From contig MGPE01000002.1 in NCBI GenBank assembly GCA_001797335.1, positions 1 through 48,227 of the forward strand: a stretch of 48,227 nt of DNA, read 5' to 3'. The stretch is from Deltaproteobacteria bacterium GWA2_38_16 (GTDB lineage: Bacteria > Bdellovibrionota > JACOXK01 > 2-02-FULL-40-11). The position numbers were made by a program, and so were the translations under genes. The notes under the pieces are model-generated. The model was not told the DNA's origin and searched no databases. It worked only from the letters and a program-made list of their open reading frames with translations. Numbering within the stretch: the first letter of the stretch is position 1; each line of letters starts with the position of its first letter. Positions 7,558 through 21,470 of the stretch are shown piece by piece.

Positions 7558-9057
7558 ATGAGTCCCTATTTTAAAACATTTTTACTCTACTCTTTCGCTA
7601 TAGGAGCGCTCGTAAGTATTATTTCATGTCAACCCTCTGGAGAACTAGAAAAAAATACAGCACCCATTGGAAACATTCCTGGAGGCTCCGATATTCCTCC
7701 CGGAGATGACCCAGGAAGCGGAGGACCTGGGGGAGATTCAGATGGAGGGGATAATCCACCTCCGGACACTTCAATTGATCAAATCAGACGAATCTCCATA
7801 GGGTATGATGGGAAGGAATCGGGTTTGGGCAATTATTACAAACCTTCCTTTTCGTCTGACGGAAAATATGTAGTATTTACTTCAACGGTTTCCAATTTAG
7901 TCGCCAATGATACCAATAACGCAGAAGATGTTTTTCTTTTTAATACCAAAACCAATCAAACACAAAGGGTTTCAATAGCTAACGATGGAATTCAAGCAAA
8001 TGATAACAGTCGCGGCTCTTCCATTTCTGCAGATGGAAGATATGTGGTATTCACGTCAAAAGCTTCTAATTTAGTCGCCAATGATACCAATGACGTAGGA
8101 GACATTTTTCTTTTTGACACCCAAGCCCAAATCAATCTTCAAATCAATCCGATGAAAAGAATTTCAATTTCAAACAGTGGAACTCAAGCAAATGGTTCAA
8201 GCTATAGTTGCTCTATTTCTTCTAATGGGAAATATGTGGTATTTAACTCATCAGCGTCTAATTTGGTAGCCAATGATACAAATGCAAAAGGAGATATCTT
8301 TCTTTTTGATACCCAAACCAATCAAATTAAAATAATTTCAATGGGGATGAATAGTCAAGGAGCTAATGGCTCAAGTTATAGTCCCTTTATCTCCGGAGAT
8401 GGAACCTATATCGTATTTGAATCAAGTGCCTCCAATTTGGTAACCGATGACACAAATGGAAAAGGTGATATTTTTCTCTTTTATAATACCTTTTTTTCAA
8501 CCAATCCCATCAAAAGAATTTCAGTCTCCCCGGATGAAAAAAACACAAATGACGAAAGCTTTCTACCCTCTATTTCTTCGGATGGAACAAATATCAATAT
8601 CGTATTTTCATCAAATGCTTCAAATTTAATATATTATACGGGTGATACAAATCAAAAAGAGGATATCTTCCTTGTTCATATGGAACCTACCATGACTACC
8701 ACACAAACAAGAATTTCATCAGGCCCTAATATAGCTAATGCCAATAACGCTAGTTCTTGGCCTTTTATTTCTGCAAATGGACAGTATGTAGTATTTGAAT
8801 CGAACGCTTCAAACTTAGTCAGCAGTGATACCAACGCATTAAATGATATTTTTCTTTCTGACACCAATAGGTTTCAAATCAAAAGGGTTTCCATGGGAAT
8901 AGATGGCCATGAAGCGAATGGCAACAGCTCTTTTTCTTCCATTTCTCCAGATGGAAAATACATAGGATTCGTATCCAACGCTTCAAACTTAGTAGCCAAT
9001 GACACGAATAATTCACCTGATCTCTTTCTCATCCCAACTTCTGTTGTTATTAAATAA
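7558..9057 (+). CDS. lipoprotein with a seven-repeat WD40-like (PD40/TolB-type) beta-propeller
   Basis: A 499-residue protein with a signal sequence and lipobox ISC (Cys near 24), then a Gly/Pro/Asp-rich linker (GGSDIPPGDDPGSGGPGGDS). The rest is seven consecutive repeats of about 60 residues with the core (S/A)DGKYVVF-SNASNLVANDTN-DIFLFDT followed by KRIS, matching the PD40 repeat and a seven-bladed propeller. Blade five carries a small insertion. The blades are similar enough at DNA level to suggest recent internal duplication. It would be tethered to a membrane and exposed to the periplasm or surface, probably as a binding protein; the ligand is unknown. Confidence 0.85.
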   Translation: MSPYFKTFLLYSFAIGALVSIISCQPSGELEKNTAPIGNIPGGSDIPPGDDPGSGGPGGDSDGGDNPPPDTSIDQIRRISIGYDGKESGLGNYYKPSFSSDGKYVVFTSTVSNLVANDTNNAEDVFLFNTKTNQTQRVSIANDGIQANDNSRGSSISADGRYVVFTSKASNLVANDTNDVGDIFLFDTQAQINLQINPMKRISISNSGTQANGSSYSCSISSNGKYVVFNSSASNLVANDTNAKGDIFLFDTQTNQIKIISMGMNSQGANGSSYSPFISGDGTYIVFESSASNLVTDDTNGKGDIFLFYNTFFSTNPIKRISVSPDEKNTNDESFLPSISSDGTNINIVFSSNASNLIYYTGDTNQKEDIFLVHMEPTMTTTQTRISSGPNIANANNASSWPFISANGQYVVFESNASNLVSSDTNALNDIFLSDTNRFQIKRVSMGIDGHEANGNSSFSSISPDGKYIGFVSNASNLVANDTNNSPDLFLIPTSVVIK

Positions 9058-16357: not shown

Positions 16358-17530
16358 TTACCGTTTTACTTCTCTGAGTCCTGTGCGAAGAACTTCTATG
16401 GATAAGCCCTTAAATGTCAAAGCGGCTTCATCCGCATTCATCTCCCTCATGAAATCAAAGAATCGTGTAAAAGCAGCAGAGCTTTCATCAACCTCAAGTT
16501 CCGTAAGACCATGCTCATCTAAAGTGCCCTCAATGCTGCCTTTGATAATCCCTCTTAAGTTTTCATAGTTATTTTTTGTCCAATGTTTATCAGAGAAAAA
16601 AGGTGCTCCGCTTCTGTTTGCCGATGGATATACACTTCGATTAAAAATATCGAATAATTTAGAAGAGATGCTTCTTCCCAATGTTTCTTGCAGCTGTGGA
16701 TCTGAAATGGCCGCTTTTATTTTTTCACATGCAGCTTCCAATCCCCCCACACCAGATGCAGGTAAAAAAGTAGAAGCAGATCGGGCTGGAGAAGCAACTG
16801 ACACCGCGGCGGGCGCTGTGGGCGTACCACCTCCTACTTTTTCTCTTACAAAACTGATTAACTCTACTTCTTTTTTTACAATTTCTTTTCTCAACGCATC
16901 CATCTTAAAAGCTTGCCCCTCTATATCATCTTGAGCTCGAGCCTGATCTCTTAAATTTTTAGATCTTTCGCCATCAATGCGACTTATTTCATCAGAAAGA
17001 AAACGACTTCTATCATTCCCTGCTCCCACATACACATCTCCCATGGCAGTGCCTTCCACAACAGCATCTTCTCTGAACCAACTTCTTGGATTGTACCACC
17101 GTGAAGTCGCTTGCCTTCTTAGATTAGCTAATTCAGCATTAAGCTGATTCGCTGTTTTATTGTACTCATCGATTAAATCGAGTCCTTCATTATGTAAATC
17201 TATCCATCTATTTCTTAAATCAACCAAATTTCCAAATTCTTTTGCCATTTCATTTAAAGGAGAAAGAGGAGGTTCTTTTATTGCCAGCACTTCATTGGCT
17301 CGATCATAGAAACCATTGTACTGATATATTAAAATCGCCATTGGATTTGCGTCCCCTGTTCCTTCTGGAAGACGAGACAAGTCTTTATAGGTAACAGAGG
17401 CCAGTTGATTTAAATATCCTTGTAATGCAGTTACTGTCGGATGATTGCGCACTGGATCTTCTGCCCATGATAGTGGGCACATATATGACAGAATAAAAAC
17501 CAAACTGATTAATTTTAAAACGTGTTTCAT
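16358..17530 (-). CDS. exported coiled-coil protein of unknown function
   Basis: Starts at ATG 17528-17530, ten bases after AAAGGAG; the frame open to 17650 translates a promoter and a 30-bp repeat and is rejected. A signal peptide (MKHVLKLISLVFILSYMC, cleaved near SWAED) precedes about 365 residues. Residues about 110-250 are rich in heptad-like Leu, Glu, Lys and Asn (NQLNAELANLRRQ, RSKNLRDQARAQDD) and probably form coiled coil. A Pro/Ala-rich hinge (GGGTPTAPAAVSVASPARS) separates this from a C-terminal helical domain. Family unknown. It shares an upstream 30-bp sequence with the TIGR02147 locus. Confidence 0.7.
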   Translation of the reverse strand: MKHVLKLISLVFILSYMCPLSWAEDPVRNHPTVTALQGYLNQLASVTYKDLSRLPEGTGDANPMAILIYQYNGFYDRANEVLAIKEPPLSPLNEMAKEFGNLVDLRNRWIDLHNEGLDLIDEYNKTANQLNAELANLRRQATSRWYNPRSWFREDAVVEGTAMGDVYVGAGNDRSRFLSDEISRIDGERSKNLRDQARAQDDIEGQAFKMDALRKEIVKKEVELISFVREKVGGGTPTAPAAVSVASPARSASTFLPASGVGGLEAACEKIKAAISDPQLQETLGRSISSKLFDIFNRSVYPSANRSGAPFFSDKHWTKNNYENLRGIIKGSIEGTLDEHGLTELEVDESSAAFTRFFDFMREMNADEAALTFKGLSIEVLRTGLREVKR

Positions 17531-17589: not shown

Positions 17590-17597
17590 TATAGGGG

Positions 17598-17627
17598 GTA
17601 AATAAAGTGATTACCGGTGGTAAATTT
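17598..17627 (+). repeat. 30-bp direct repeat, copy 1
   Basis: Identical over 30 bases, same orientation, to 20324-20353. It contains the dyad TTACC-ggt-GGTAA. It lies immediately upstream of the coiled-coil protein promoter. It could be a regulator binding site or a trace of recombination, since the two copies flank the toxin-antitoxin genes. Confidence 0.8.
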
Positions 17628-17669
17628 TTGAAGCTAAAACAGGACATCAAGCTATGATAATTTGAATAT

Positions 17670-18002
17670 CTACTTCATATTATCATGATAAACTGAAGTT
17701 GAATAAATGACATCTCCTTCTTGCAATATTTTCTCTCTAAAAACTTTTGAAACCCTGGAAAGATCTACAAGATCCACAGAGTATGGAAAGTTGCTTTCTT
17801 CAAAGTATTCTTTCATAAATGCCATTTTAGCAGAATCTAAAGGTTTTAAACTACTGATCGCAATATCAATATCAGATAAACGCGATGTTTTTCCAGAAAC
17901 AAAAGAGCCAAATAGAATAATCTTAAACTGCTTATCTTCTAAGATTTTACAAATACCCTCAATAATAAAGCTAAGACTATCTTTAGGAAGTTTATTTTTC
18001 AC
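17670..18002 (-). CDS. minimal nucleotidyltransferase (MNT) of an MNT/HEPN pair
   Basis: A 110-residue protein with the polymerase-beta-type nucleotidyltransferase motif FGSFVSGKTSRLSDIDIAI, in which the two Asp residues bind metal. It overlaps the upstream HEPN gene by 11 bases. In such pairs the MNT protein usually acts as the antitoxin by adding AMP to the HEPN RNase; substrates differ between systems. The gene order HEPN then MNT is the usual HI0074-HI0073 arrangement. Confidence 0.88.
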   Translation of the reverse strand: MKNKLPKDSLSFIIEGICKILEDKQFKIILFGSFVSGKTSRLSDIDIAISSLKPLDSAKMAFMKEYFEESNFPYSVDLVDLSRVSKVFREKILQEGDVIYSTSVYHDNMK

Positions 18003-18375
18003 TTTCTTGCTTTAAACGGATAAGAGTCTTTTTGGCGACCTCTAAAAAATTTTTAGATGCCTCAAAAACATCTTCTGCTTGATCTTCATTATAGGTATGT
18101 GTCGTTAAATTTCTCTTTTCTAAAAAGCCAAACCAAAGATTTAAATCATCAATGAGCCCAATCTTCAAGGCTGCTCGAAAAACTTGTTTTGGGCTTCCGA
18201 CTTCTATGCCTTGCATTTTTAAAATTCGCTGCATCATCTTCCACATCAGTTCAAAGGTGTACTCAAATCGTTGGATAGCCCCATCTCGCCGATAAACATC
18301 CATTTCTTGCCGATGAATATCTTCCAGACTTTCAACGGCCTTTGTTAAGGCAGAGAAATCTATTTTATAGCTCAT
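17992..18375 (-). CDS. HEPN / nucleotidyltransferase substrate-binding protein (HI0074 family)
   Basis: A roughly 127-residue all-helical protein. The start is taken at ATG 18373-18375 (MSYKIDFSALTKAV), with an adjacent ATG three bases earlier; no Shine-Dalgarno sequence is visible. Family features are the N-terminal LTKAVESLED, FEYTFELMWKMMQRIL, SPKQVFRAALKIGLI and the NLTTHTYNE block near 95, which corresponds to the RNase Rx4-6H region of HEPN domains. The partner MNT gene follows with an 11-base overlap. Confidence 0.85.
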   Translation of the reverse strand: MSYKIDFSALTKAVESLEDIHRQEMDVYRRDGAIQRFEYTFELMWKMMQRILKMQGIEVGSPKQVFRAALKIGLIDDLNLWFGFLEKRNLTTHTYNEDQAEDVFEASKNFLEVAKKTLIRLKQESEK

Positions 18376-18443
18376 CATAAGAATTAGTTTATGACATAAT
18401 CCCAAGAAGTTTCAATCCAAAAATAGAAAATCTAAAAAATAAC

Positions 18444-18471
18444 TTGATTTTATACACGTAACCATTATAAT
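18444..18471 (+). promoter_or_regulatory. promoter of the ParE/Phd operon, leaderless
   Basis: TTGATT (18444-18449), 16 bases, consensus TATAAT (18466-18471), then six bases to GTG 18478. The predicted +1 is the G of the start codon. The -10 box occupies the centre of a 32-bp palindrome. Confidence 0.7.
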
Positions 18472-18483
18472 GGTTACGTGTAT
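18452..18483. promoter_or_regulatory. perfect 32-bp palindromic operator spanning -10 box and start codon
   Basis: Each 16-base half reads ATACACGTAACCATTA and its exact complement. It covers the -10 box and the GTG start of the toxin gene. This is a strong candidate for the autoregulatory operator bound by the Phd/YefM-type antitoxin or its complex with toxin. Confidence 0.8.
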
Positions 18484-18735
18484 CGGCTTCTTTTTACAGA
18501 TAAAGCAAGAAAGCAGTATGAGCCTATTTCTGGGAAACTTAAAGGACAAATAGATAAAGGGCTTGAACGAATTTCTAAAAACCCCTATGGAGGAAAGCCG
18601 CTGATAGGAGATCTCAGAGGAATTTGGTCTGAAAGGGTTTCTACTTTTAGAATCCTTTATAAGATTTATGAAACCAAAATAGAAGTTTTAGTACTTTTAA
18701 TTGAACACCGAAAGAAAGTCTACGGAGGGCATTAG
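18478..18735 (+). CDS. RelE/ParE-superfamily toxin
   Basis: An 85-residue protein beginning at GTG 18478 (YRLLFTDKARKQYEPI). Family features are the alpha-hairpin with LKGQIDKGLERISKNPYGGKPLIGDLRGIW in two helices, and the C-terminal strand FRILYKIYETKIEVLVLLIEHRKKVYGG, in which RILYK and EHRKKVY carry the usual basic and aromatic residues. It could be an mRNA interferase (RelE-like) or a gyrase poison (ParE-like). The toxin gene precedes the antitoxin gene by two bases, the reverse of the commonest order. Confidence 0.88.
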   Translation: MYRLLFTDKARKQYEPISGKLKGQIDKGLERISKNPYGGKPLIGDLRGIWSERVSTFRILYKIYETKIEVLVLLIEHRKKVYGGH

Positions 18736-18737
18736 CC

Positions 18738-19040
18738 ATGATAAAAAGTAAATTTATCTCTGTTAGTAAAGCAAAAACAAAACTCTTGGCATTGGTACGA
18801 ACCATGAATGAAACGGGAGAATCTTATATTTTAACCAAAGACGGAGAGCCAAAAGGCGTTTTGCTCCCCACAGAAGTATATGAATCCTATCTTGAAACAA
18901 TGGAAGTTGAGGAAAATCCAAAACTCATGTCTGAACTCAAGCAAGCTTTAGCGGAAGAAAAAAAAGAACATCTTTGGACCAGAGATAAAAAAGGACGCTG
19001 GATAAAATATTCTTCAAAATCTACCAAAAAAGCAGCTTAA
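18738..19040 (+). CDS. Phd/YefM-type antitoxin
   Basis: A 100-residue protein. The N-terminal DNA-binding fold is recognisable in FISVSKAKTKLLALVRTMNETGESYILTKDGEPKGVLLPTEVYESYLETM (read as separate blocks), matching Phd/YefM antitoxins. The C-terminal half is charged and probably unfolded until it wraps around the toxin. It starts two bases after the toxin stop and probably binds the 32-bp palindrome at 18452-18483. Confidence 0.87.
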   Translation: MIKSKFISVSKAKTKLLALVRTMNETGESYILTKDGEPKGVLLPTEVYESYLETMEVEENPKLMSELKQALAEEKKEHLWTRDKKGRWIKYSSKSTKKAA

Positions 19041-19068
19041 TTTTTTATTTTTAAAGACTTGATTTCGA

Positions 19069-20250
19069 CTAATATTCAGGAACCACCCAGTGATCACGAG
19101 ACCACCAGCCAGTCGAAGAATCCAGAGGATTAAAATTATGTACAACATCAGCTGAAATTTGAGGAGGCAATCCCTCATAGCATCCTCCCAGGGGATTAAA
19201 TTGTTCGTCTTTATAGCTTTGGTGTAAAGCTTGATTTTGAATGACAGCACGATGAACGGGGATATCAAATCCTTTGATCCTAAAATAATGCCAATTTCCT
19301 TGATCGTAAAGAATAGGAATAGAAAGTTGTAATTCTAAAATCTTTGGATCTGGACCAGCCAAAGATTTATAGCGACCTTCAGCATTCCGCGAACCATCAG
19401 CTCTTCTCATTCCATAATCGCGATCTGCTGCATTGCTCCAAACTCTTTGCTCAAATCTATATCCCGTATCAAGATGTGTCATGTCGGATCCAGATTGAAC
19501 TAAATCTCCAGGGCTGATGGATGCCGCGGGAGAACGGTTGTCATCAAACACATAGGTTCTGGCATGACGGTAGTTACTGGTGGGCTGATCGAACACAGAA
19601 AGAATATCTTGGGTTTGAAGAGGTCTATTGGTAAAATTATATCCTGAAATAAAAGGAAAAGGATTAAGCGGTCCTCGGAACCATTGTTCAAGAAGAGACT
19701 CAGATAGCACAAGATCATTCGAATGTTGTATGTTGGCATTGATAATGAAAGGGATAAGATCACTCCACCCCAATTGAGCCCAGCGTTTAAAATAATGAGG
19801 GGGCAAATAATCAAATTTAAGATTAATAAAAAGCCCATCGAGATGGGTCGAAGGAGTATATGTGTCCTCCCAATCTACACGACTAAAATCTCCATATTCT
19901 CTCGTCATGGCACAGATGTTGAGTCGAACAAGAGGAATCGCCGTTTCAGGGTCTACTTTTTGCCCTGCTAAGGGACGACTCCATGGCCAATTGGGGTCAT
20001 CTTCAGGCCAAGGATTCCAAGGATCAGTACCAGTCCATGGGTCATCAGTGCTTCCATCTTTTTTAGGAGGTATAGTCATAGACTCATCATCCAAATCAAA
20101 TGTATTGGAGCCTTTAAGAAGTGAGGTACTGCTGCTGGTAGAAGCACTCGTCCCAGCAGAAGGTGTTCCACTCTGTTCGCCTCCTCCACACGATATAAAA
20201 AGCACGAGAAGTAAAAGCAGTAAAAAATATTTCAAAATTCTTAACTTCAT
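19069..20250 (-). CDS. lipoprotein of unknown function with Trp/Pro-rich linker
   Basis: Starts at ATG 20248-20250; the frame open to 20448 covers a promoter and a 30-bp repeat and is rejected. The signal MKLRILKYFLLLLLLVLFISC ends in a lipobox, followed by GGG and a Ser/Thr-rich linker, then an unusual DPW/NPWPEDDPNWPW segment. The C-terminal 270 residues look like a folded domain with many aromatic residues and a repeated Asp-Arg pattern (ARTYVFDDNRS, DRDYGMRRADGSR). Family not recognised. It is divergent from the TIGR02147 gene and shares its regulatory region. Confidence 0.7.
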   Translation of the reverse strand: MKLRILKYFLLLLLLVLFISCGGGEQSGTPSAGTSASTSSSTSLLKGSNTFDLDDESMTIPPKKDGSTDDPWTGTDPWNPWPEDDPNWPWSRPLAGQKVDPETAIPLVRLNICAMTREYGDFSRVDWEDTYTPSTHLDGLFINLKFDYLPPHYFKRWAQLGWSDLIPFIINANIQHSNDLVLSESLLEQWFRGPLNPFPFISGYNFTNRPLQTQDILSVFDQPTSNYRHARTYVFDDNRSPAASISPGDLVQSGSDMTHLDTGYRFEQRVWSNAADRDYGMRRADGSRNAEGRYKSLAGPDPKILELQLSIPILYDQGNWHYFRIKGFDIPVHRAVIQNQALHQSYKDEQFNPLGGCYEGLPPQISADVVHNFNPLDSSTGWWSRDHWVVPEY

Positions 20251-20270
20251 AAACGTACTATAACACTTAA

Positions 20271-20298
20271 ATTTTACCACGAAACCGGACAGAGACAA
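20271..20298 (-). promoter_or_regulatory. promoter of the Trp-rich lipoprotein
   Basis: Minus strand TTGTCT, 16 bases ending GTGG, TAAAAT (20271-20276). The spacer end TTTCGTGG resembles TTTTGTGG of the 17562-17589 promoter, so the two promoters may be related by duplication. The 30-bp repeat lies about 24 bases upstream. Confidence 0.45.
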
Positions 20299-20323
20299 TG
20301 TTTGGAACATTAAAATTAGATGA

Positions 20324-20353
20324 GTAAATAAAGTGATTACCGGTGGTAAATTT
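20324..20353 (+). repeat. 30-bp direct repeat, copy 2
   Basis: Exact copy of 17598-17627 in the same orientation, including TTACC-ggt-GGTAA. It is five bases upstream of the -35 box of the TIGR02147 gene and in the same region as the divergent lipoprotein promoter. Confidence 0.8.
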
Positions 20354-20358
20354 GGAGA

Positions 20359-20387
20359 TTGACAAAAAGACATTTGCCTAATATATA
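20359..20387 (+). promoter_or_regulatory. leaderless promoter of the TIGR02147 gene
   Basis: Consensus TTGACA (20359-20364), 17 bases, TATATA (20382-20387), then seven bases to ATG 20395. Predicted +1 coincides with the start codon and there is no Shine-Dalgarno sequence. Confidence 0.7.
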
Positions 20388-20394
20388 AGCATCT

Positions 20395-21204
20395 ATGATT
20401 TTTGAGCACACAGATTATAAAAGCTATCTCAAAGAAGCCTATATTCAAAAAAAGAACGCCAATTCAAAGTATTCACAACGAGCATTCGCAAAACACCTTG
20501 GAATTAGTCCAACACTCATCAACCTTGTCTTTAAAGGAACCAAGAACATTTCTTCCGAAACAGCACTCATGATGTCTGATCCCTTAAAACTTAAGGAAAA
20601 TGAACGAGATTATTTTTGTAGCCTTGTCCAGCTTGAGGGAGCCAAAACTCCTCAAGCCAAAGAGTTTATGGCCAAAAAACTTGAAAACCTCCACCCTGCA
20701 CAATCCTTTCAAACCATTGAATTGGACCACTTTAAAATGATTTCAAACTGGTACCACCATGCCATTTTAGAGATGACGGAGCTTGATCATTTTAAATATA
20801 ATCCCAGTTGGATTTCAAAAACATTAAACATTTCAAAAGAGGAAGTGGAGCTTGCCTGGGAGAGGCTAAAACGACTAAAACTCATCACAAAGAAAAAAGG
20901 GAAATGGCATAAAACACATGCCTTTTCCTCCATACAATCTGATAAATATCACGATGTTATCCGAAAATTCCACAAACAAACACTTGAAAAAGCCCTAGAA
21001 AGCTTAAGTTCTCAAACCCCAGAAGAAATGGAGATGGGCACGATGACACTTTCTATTGATCCTTCCAAAATAAAACAAGCCAAAAAGAAAATGAAAGAAT
21101 TTAGAATGGAAATGGCGCAATATTTAACGAAGGGAAAAAGAACTCATACCTATCAACTCTCCACTCACCTTTTTAAACTAACCAAAGGAGATTCACGCGA
21201 ATGA
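20395..21204 (+). CDS. TIGR02147 family protein, probable DNA-binding regulator
   Basis: A 269-residue protein. The N-terminal 90 residues carry a helix-turn-helix of the XRE-like type (YSQRAFAKHLGISPTLINLVFKGTKNIS) typical of the TIGR02147 family, known mainly from Fibrobacter and Bdellovibrio-like bacteria where it occurs in many copies. The middle has WYHHAILEMTELDHF followed by a winged-helix-like segment (ELAWERLKRLKLITKKKGKWH), also typical. The last four bases overlap the next gene for a small exported protein, so the two act as a unit. It is the best candidate to bind the 30-bp repeats at 17598 and 20324. Confidence 0.85.
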   Translation: MIFEHTDYKSYLKEAYIQKKNANSKYSQRAFAKHLGISPTLINLVFKGTKNISSETALMMSDPLKLKENERDYFCSLVQLEGAKTPQAKEFMAKKLENLHPAQSFQTIELDHFKMISNWYHHAILEMTELDHFKYNPSWISKTLNISKEEVELAWERLKRLKLITKKKGKWHKTHAFSSIQSDKYHDVIRKFHKQTLEKALESLSSQTPEEMEMGTMTLSIDPSKIKQAKKKMKEFRMEMAQYLTKGKRTHTYQLSTHLFKLTKGDSRE

Positions 21205-21470
21205 TTAAAAAAATATTTTTTCTGCTTATTCTAAACTTTCTCACTACGCCTGCCTTCTCTGGAGGAGGAGGCATTGATGTTTCTGGTGGTGAATTAGAAA
21301 TATTTTTAAGAAACCATTTAAATTTAAGTGCATGTTTAACTCAAGATCATCTTTTATTGATTGAAGATATCGAAACCCAAGAAAGAGCCATTTTTCCGAT
21401 AGAATCTTTTGAAGTAGAGTCTCTGGGGGAAGACTGGGTACTACAACTCCCCACCTGTGGTTCTTTCTAG
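21201..21470 (+). CDS. small exported protein encoded with the TIGR02147 regulator
   Basis: An 89-residue protein with signal peptide MIKKIFFLLILNFLTTPAFS, then GGGGIDVSGGELE and two cysteines near the middle and the C-terminus (SACLTQ, PTCGSF) that could form a disulfide. ATG 21201 overlaps the regulator's stop, implying coupled translation. TIGR02147 genes are often followed by genes for small exported proteins; function unknown. Its 3' end overlaps the convergent sdhB stop by four bases. Confidence 0.7.
   Translation: MIKKIFFLLILNFLTTPAFSGGGGIDVSGGELEIFLRNHLNLSACLTQDHLLLIEDIETQERAIFPIESFEVESLGEDWVLQLPTCGSF

Follow-up and report, generated by a model that had tools for sequence, protein, structure and literature searches.

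A predicted bidirectional operator of a TIGR02147 regulator, probably duplicated by insertion of a toxin-antitoxin block, in Deltaproteobacteria bacterium GWA2_38_16

Introduction

Activators of the XRE/lambda-repressor type bind just upstream of the -35 box, examples being lambda cI at PRM and Rgg/ComR. Regulators of the TIGR02147 (Fsuc_second)/DUF4423 family are encoded in most sampled genomes of the phylum (103 of 114, with up to 26 copies per genome), yet almost nothing has been published on them: the literature searched contained no paper on TIGR02147 and no described binding site, and DUF4423 appeared just as an entry in a proteome table. One such regulator is encoded in the stretch of DNA analysed here (the window; 48,227 nucleotides, contig MGPE01000002.1, positions 1 to 48,227 of the forward strand) from Deltaproteobacteria bacterium GWA2_38_16, close to one of two identical copies of a 30-bp sequence, GTAAATAAAGTGATTACCGGTGGTAAATTT. 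On the basis of sequence comparison, the two copies probably represent a single bidirectional operator of this regulator that was duplicated by insertion of a block of toxin-antitoxin and lipoprotein genes.

The 30-bp repeat and its promoters

The two copies are in the same orientation and 2726 bp apart. A preliminary description of the window had correctly placed them and noted the TTACC-ggt-GGTAA that both contain. An exact 30-bp repeat within 48 kb is not a chance event. The search for further copies that had been proposed yielded none, only these two being present genome-wide (2.0 Mb, up to 3 mismatches) and none for the reversed control, so that no wide regulon emerges. The 13-bp core, TTACCggtGGTAA, is weak evidence by itself, since two matches at 2 mismatches occurred in 10 of 100 shuffles and its genomic matches at 1 mismatch were no commoner than in the control; the core alone is not significant, the identity of all 30 bp is. 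The features of the repeat, its promoters and the genes they precede are as follows.

17598 to 17627, plus strand: repeat copy 1, 30 bp, 30/30 identical to copy 2
20324 to 20353, plus strand: repeat copy 2, 30 bp, 30/30 identical to copy 1
17628 to 20323, strand not applicable: block between the copies (MNT/HEPN, ParE/Phd and lipoprotein genes), probably inserted
16361 to 17530, minus strand: exported coiled-coil protein, 390 amino acids
19069 to 20250, minus strand: lipoprotein, 393 amino acids, with a distant paralog at G000:C5:28444-29541
20395 to 21204, plus strand: TIGR02147/DUF4423 regulator, 269 amino acids
17562 to 17589, minus strand: predicted promoter of the coiled-coil gene, TTGATT-16-TACAAG, extended TGG
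20359 to 20387, plus strand: predicted promoter of the TIGR02147 gene, TTGACA-17-TATATA
20271 to 20298, minus strand: predicted promoter of the lipoprotein gene, TTGTCT-16-TAAAAT, extended TGG
20337 to 20349, plus strand: dyad A of copy 2, TTACCggtGGTAA, centred at 20343, 16 bp from the -35 box of the TIGR02147 gene
17597 to 17615, minus strand: dyad B at copy 1, GGTAATCACTTTATTTACC, GGTAA-N9-TTACC with a CACTTT centre, centred at 17606, 17 bp from the -35 box of the coiled-coil gene
20305 to 20324, minus strand: element E, CTCATCTAATTTTAATGTTC, with a CAT-N9-ATG dyad whose centre is 17 bp from the -35 box of the lipoprotein gene

The -35 box of the coiled-coil gene (TTGATT, 17589-17584, minus strand) is 8 bp from copy 1, and that of the TIGR02147 gene (TTGACA, 20359-20364) is 5 bp from copy 2. 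The claim that the copies stand a few bases from -35 boxes is accurate for these two promoters and loose for that of the lipoprotein gene (TTGTCT, 20298-20293, minus strand), which is 25 bp from copy 2. The 30-mer consists of two overlapping dyads that have the half-site TTACC in common and whose centres are separated by one helical turn (11 bp); the pair is the predicted functional unit, rather than TTACCggtGGTAA alone as had been proposed. At copy 1 no promoter is found at the canonical distance from dyad A, and dyad B of copy 2 stands 34 bp away from the -35 box of the lipoprotein gene. Canonical spacing is thus held by the two outer promoters and is lacking on the inner sides. The closest paralogous locus in the genome, L060, whose TIGR02147 protein is 56% identical, also has a CACTTT-centred dyad 17 bp from the -35 box of its divergent gene.

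The TIGR02147 gene of the window appears nearly leaderless, its start codon lying 7 nucleotides past the predicted -10 box. The same appearance, with the start codon some 7-12 nucleotides after the -10 box, was seen in several TIGR02147 genes (for example window 20382-20395, L060 and L066). The repeat can be read in frame as NLPPVITLF ahead of each of the minus-strand genes (coiled-coil and lipoprotein), but a coding role was rejected, as the start codons and the signal peptides after them are downstream of it.

The repeat had also been assigned to the lipoprotein gene, which it probably does not serve directly; judging by its placement, element E is probably the site that serves this promoter. 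The corresponding dispersed element, CATTAAAATTRGATGAG, was matched 7 times on the strand of the genome that was searched, with up to 3 mismatches allowed, compared with once in the control (window 20305-20324, L079, L080, L081, L082, L083 and L084). Several are near exported or lipoprotein genes, and several precede lipoprotein genes; in three cases the element is 17 bp from a TTGNNN-16-TANAAT promoter. Two copies (L080 and L081, G000:C15:2347-3630) flank an ATPase-like gene at a spacing of 1264 bp.

The TIGR02147 family and its predicted operator

The window regulator matches the whole TIGR02147 model over residues 2-264 (172.2 bits, cutoff 50) and DUF4423 at 150 bits, and it is one of 14 family members in this genome. 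The upstream regions of 82 TIGR02147 genes, collected from this genome and from relatives, were rich in inverted repeats; for 38% of them the best repeat was equalled in under 5% of 40 shuffles. An unsupervised motif search from which the window gene was excluded returned nnnAACActTTgTTn with a log-likelihood of 112 against 66-68 in shuffles. TIGR02147 genes close to that of the window carried a dyad with the consensus AACActTTgTT, its centre 16-17 bp before the -35 box. Dyad symmetry across 80 TIGR02147 promoters peaked at distances to the -35 box of exactly 16 and 17 bp (0.360 and 0.338; mean 0.271), whereas 351 control promoters gave no peak there (0.282 and 0.261). Among motif matches above 8 bits, a promoter-like TTG stood at 16/17 in 10 genes and at any other adjacent pair of distances in at most 2.

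In a first held-out set, for which genes with the best family scores were taken, the signal was present only in the helix-turn-helix (HTH) type to which the window protein belongs, in 3 of 7 promoters. The HTH types were defined after the first results were known; the cleaner test is a second held-out set, made up of 62 genes closely related to that of the window protein. Here 10 of 27 promoters had at least 5 of 6 paired positions at 16/17 bp compared with 2.2% at other distances (binomial p 1.8e-10, an optimistic value since genes in the sets are related to each other), and the family position weight matrix (PWM) scored above 12 in 11 of 62 genes on the forward strand and in none on the reverse. 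Divergent neighbours in general showed a weak excess at 16/17 bp (9% versus 2.6%) that was equalled at another distance. The earlier proposal that the repeat is an operator of TIGR02147 thereby gains support, dyads at a distance from the -35 box that is fixed in the family having been replicated in held-out genes.

An exported open reading frame (ORF) began within 60 nucleotides after the TIGR02147 gene in 68 of 79 and 53 of 61 cases, with a Gly-rich motif in 57 and 45; both calls were rough and rule-based. Regulator and partner overlapped by ATGA in 45 of 79 (first set). A GNGGD-like Gly-rich motif just past the signal peptide was observed in the partner (window 21201-21470; also, for example, L056, L058, L063 and L031). 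A structural model of the window regulator (mean predicted local distance difference test score 89.7) has an N-terminal, lambda-repressor-like HTH helix bundle and a helical C-terminal part with a beta hairpin. A fold search with the model gave no significant match, lambda repressor and CzrA/MarR-type winged helices being suggestive at E about 0.1.

Flanks of the repeat and origin of the block

At two homologous loci, the paralog L060 and the homolog L066, a single intergenic region separates a TIGR02147 gene from a divergently transcribed gene for an exported protein. The outer side of copy 1 matches L060 (p 0.001-0.003), where TCAATATAGG..AAAGTG.TT aligns at 22 of 27 positions, and the outer flank of copy 2, with the TIGR02147 promoter, aligns to L066 (p 0.001-0.003). 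A 14-mer, CCCCAAAAAAGGAG, occurs exactly twice in the genome, in the leader of the coiled-coil gene and in the divergent leader of L060. When the left flank of copy 1, the repeat and the right flank of copy 2 were joined, the construct matched L060 and L066 with p 0.001-0.002 relative to shuffled controls, whereas the equivalent construct of inner flanks matched neither (p 0.6-1.0). The inner flank of copy 2 matches instead the promoter of the lipoprotein paralog (p 0.001), and this match ends at the edge of the repeat. The insertion proposed earlier also gains support. It had been offered as an alternative to the operator; each of the two has its own support and the data favour both at once.

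Because the outer sides hold the canonical geometry and match the intergenic regions of homologs, and the inner sides do neither, an ancestral bidirectional operator and a later insertion are proposed. The 30-mer would be the operator of the regulator encoded at 20395-21204. In the ancestral locus a single copy would have separated the TIGR02147 gene, on the plus strand, from a divergently transcribed exported-protein gene on the minus strand, today the coiled-coil gene; dyad A would have served the promoter of the regulator gene and dyad B that of the exported-protein gene. The 2.7-kb block (MNT/HEPN, ParE/Phd and lipoprotein) may later have entered at the operator, leaving a full operator on each side, so that both outer promoters would have kept it. 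A repair event at this site would fit, as would recombination of a circle that bore the same operator. We infer that the regulator would bind just upstream of the -35 box, at about -52 from the predicted start, a position that would fit activation together with autoregulation.

Weighing of explanations

Several observations tell against an operator duplicated by insertion. Dyad B reached just 4 of 6 under the k=2-7 criterion, L066 has no clear dyad at 16/17 bp, and the repeat, GTAATCACTTTATTT, scores just 6.1 (minus strand) with the family PWM, chance matches in the window reaching 11.5. The first held-out set was weak when pooled and the signal is not universal, with 0 of 8 in its NYLK-type subfamily. 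No genome with an empty site and no orthologous locus was found in the relatives searched, from which the coiled-coil and lipoprotein genes are also absent (the former from the other genomes of a 39-genome search), and the coiled-coil protein has no homology to the divergent protein of L060. Nor is there an enzyme to explain a 30-bp duplication. The family PWM as the sole means of finding the repeat within the window fails, and as its score there is within the chance range, the case for an operator rests on geometry and flanks.

A rather unlikely alternative is that selection has used the operator site twice, in a regulon of the TIGR02147 and coiled-coil genes, the toxin-antitoxin genes having dropped into a gap of an ordinary gene order with no event joining the copies. 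Each copy does lie at the canonical distance from a promoter and exported-protein genes often neighbour TIGR02147 genes. Selection of this kind does not account for identity across the whole 30 bp, which at each copy includes a dyad lacking a canonically spaced promoter, nor for a change from outer to inner flank homology exactly at the repeat. Moreover, no other paralog in the genome has a comparable repeat shared between its site and its neighbourhood: comparison of the upstream regions of the other paralogs with their own neighbourhoods for exact repeats of at least 13 bp returned nothing comparable.

That the repeat is instead the bare scar of an insertion, left by target duplication or recombination and devoid of regulatory function, is very improbable. 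Abrupt ends, exact identity, a copy number of two and chimeric flanks are what a scar would show. However, both hold dyads at the -35 distance seen for the regulator family in held-out genomes, a target duplication made by a transposon is usually shorter than 30 bp, and the block encodes no transposase or integrase (its ORFs being MNT, HEPN, ParE, Phd and the lipoprotein only). No inverted repeat pairing both ends of the block was present among the 25 longest listed, G+C content showed no sharp block boundary, and a DNA search of the genome for a source of the toxin-antitoxin part returned just itself and short matches. Among the genome contigs searched there was only one named close relative, 46% identical. 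We give similarly little credence to the view that a longer segment with divergent promoters was duplicated in tandem long ago and that all of it but the selected operator has since diverged or been deleted. This would also yield two operators, explain their retained function and be compatible with the outer-flank homologies, but it sits poorly with flanks that are dissimilar immediately beyond the repeat and with spacer bases that have no known role and are identical too.

An operator duplicated by insertion would show how a switch can be captured and doubled with neither promoter broken. Its layout is seen again, in various genomes of the phylum, before genes of related regulators and provides the family with a predicted, testable binding site; being fixed in position, this would make TIGR02147 targets computable and their function testable. 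A much wider scheme, which we regard as speculative and doubtful, is that TIGR02147 regulators and the exported Gly-rich (GNGG) proteins whose genes immediately follow most of theirs form a phylum-wide one-component system, in which each paralog would bind its own dyad upstream of the -35 box and control surface or exported proteins while the GNGG protein reports the state of export or of the surface. Here one bidirectional switch would have been split and doubled by a toxin-antitoxin block that guards itself against loss by recombination between the repeats.

Other features of the locus

The remaining genes are given below; the calls of the TIGR02147, MNT/HEPN and ParE/Phd genes in the preliminary description were borne out.

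17670 to 18002, minus strand: MNT nucleotidyltransferase, candidate MntA-type antitoxin
17992 to 18381, minus strand: HEPN-type partner (HI0074/PF08780)
18478 to 18735, plus strand: ParE/YoeB-like toxin
18738 to 19040, plus strand: Phd/YefM antitoxin
21201 to 21470, plus strand: exported partner of the regulator, 89 amino acids, Gly-rich after the signal peptide, with a 4-bp ATGA overlap with the regulator gene

The regulator and its 89-amino-acid partner are probably co-transcribed. Compared with MntA/HepT-type (type VII) toxin-antitoxin systems, the MNT assignment is marginal (60.8 bits, cutoff 60) and its partner is of the HI0074/PF08780 type. A perfect 32-bp palindrome, ATACACGTAACCATTATAATGGTTACGTGTAT, at 18452-18483 overlaps the GTG start of the ParE-like gene and is likely a toxin-antitoxin operator. 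Elsewhere in the window, a tandem-like family of repeats of 104-127 nucleotides occupies 7834-9029, at a spacing of mostly 174-192 nucleotides.

Comparison with known systems

By its scores the window regulator belongs to the TIGR02147/DUF4423 family, from whose described properties the locus differs in offering a candidate binding site. It resembles activators of the XRE/lambda-repressor type in its modelled N-terminal HTH, in the dyad next to the -35 box and in the association of a regulator gene with an exported partner gene; its fold matches are weak. The predicted centre is at about -52, compared with -42 for lambda cI, and the partner, rather than being a short peptide, is an exported protein of full size. 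The direct repeats that flank the block, and its chimeric flanks, are like those left by transposon target duplication or Campbell-type integration, from which this locus differs in having 30-bp repeats, a block free of transposase and integrase genes, and a repeat that itself has the appearance of a functional operator.
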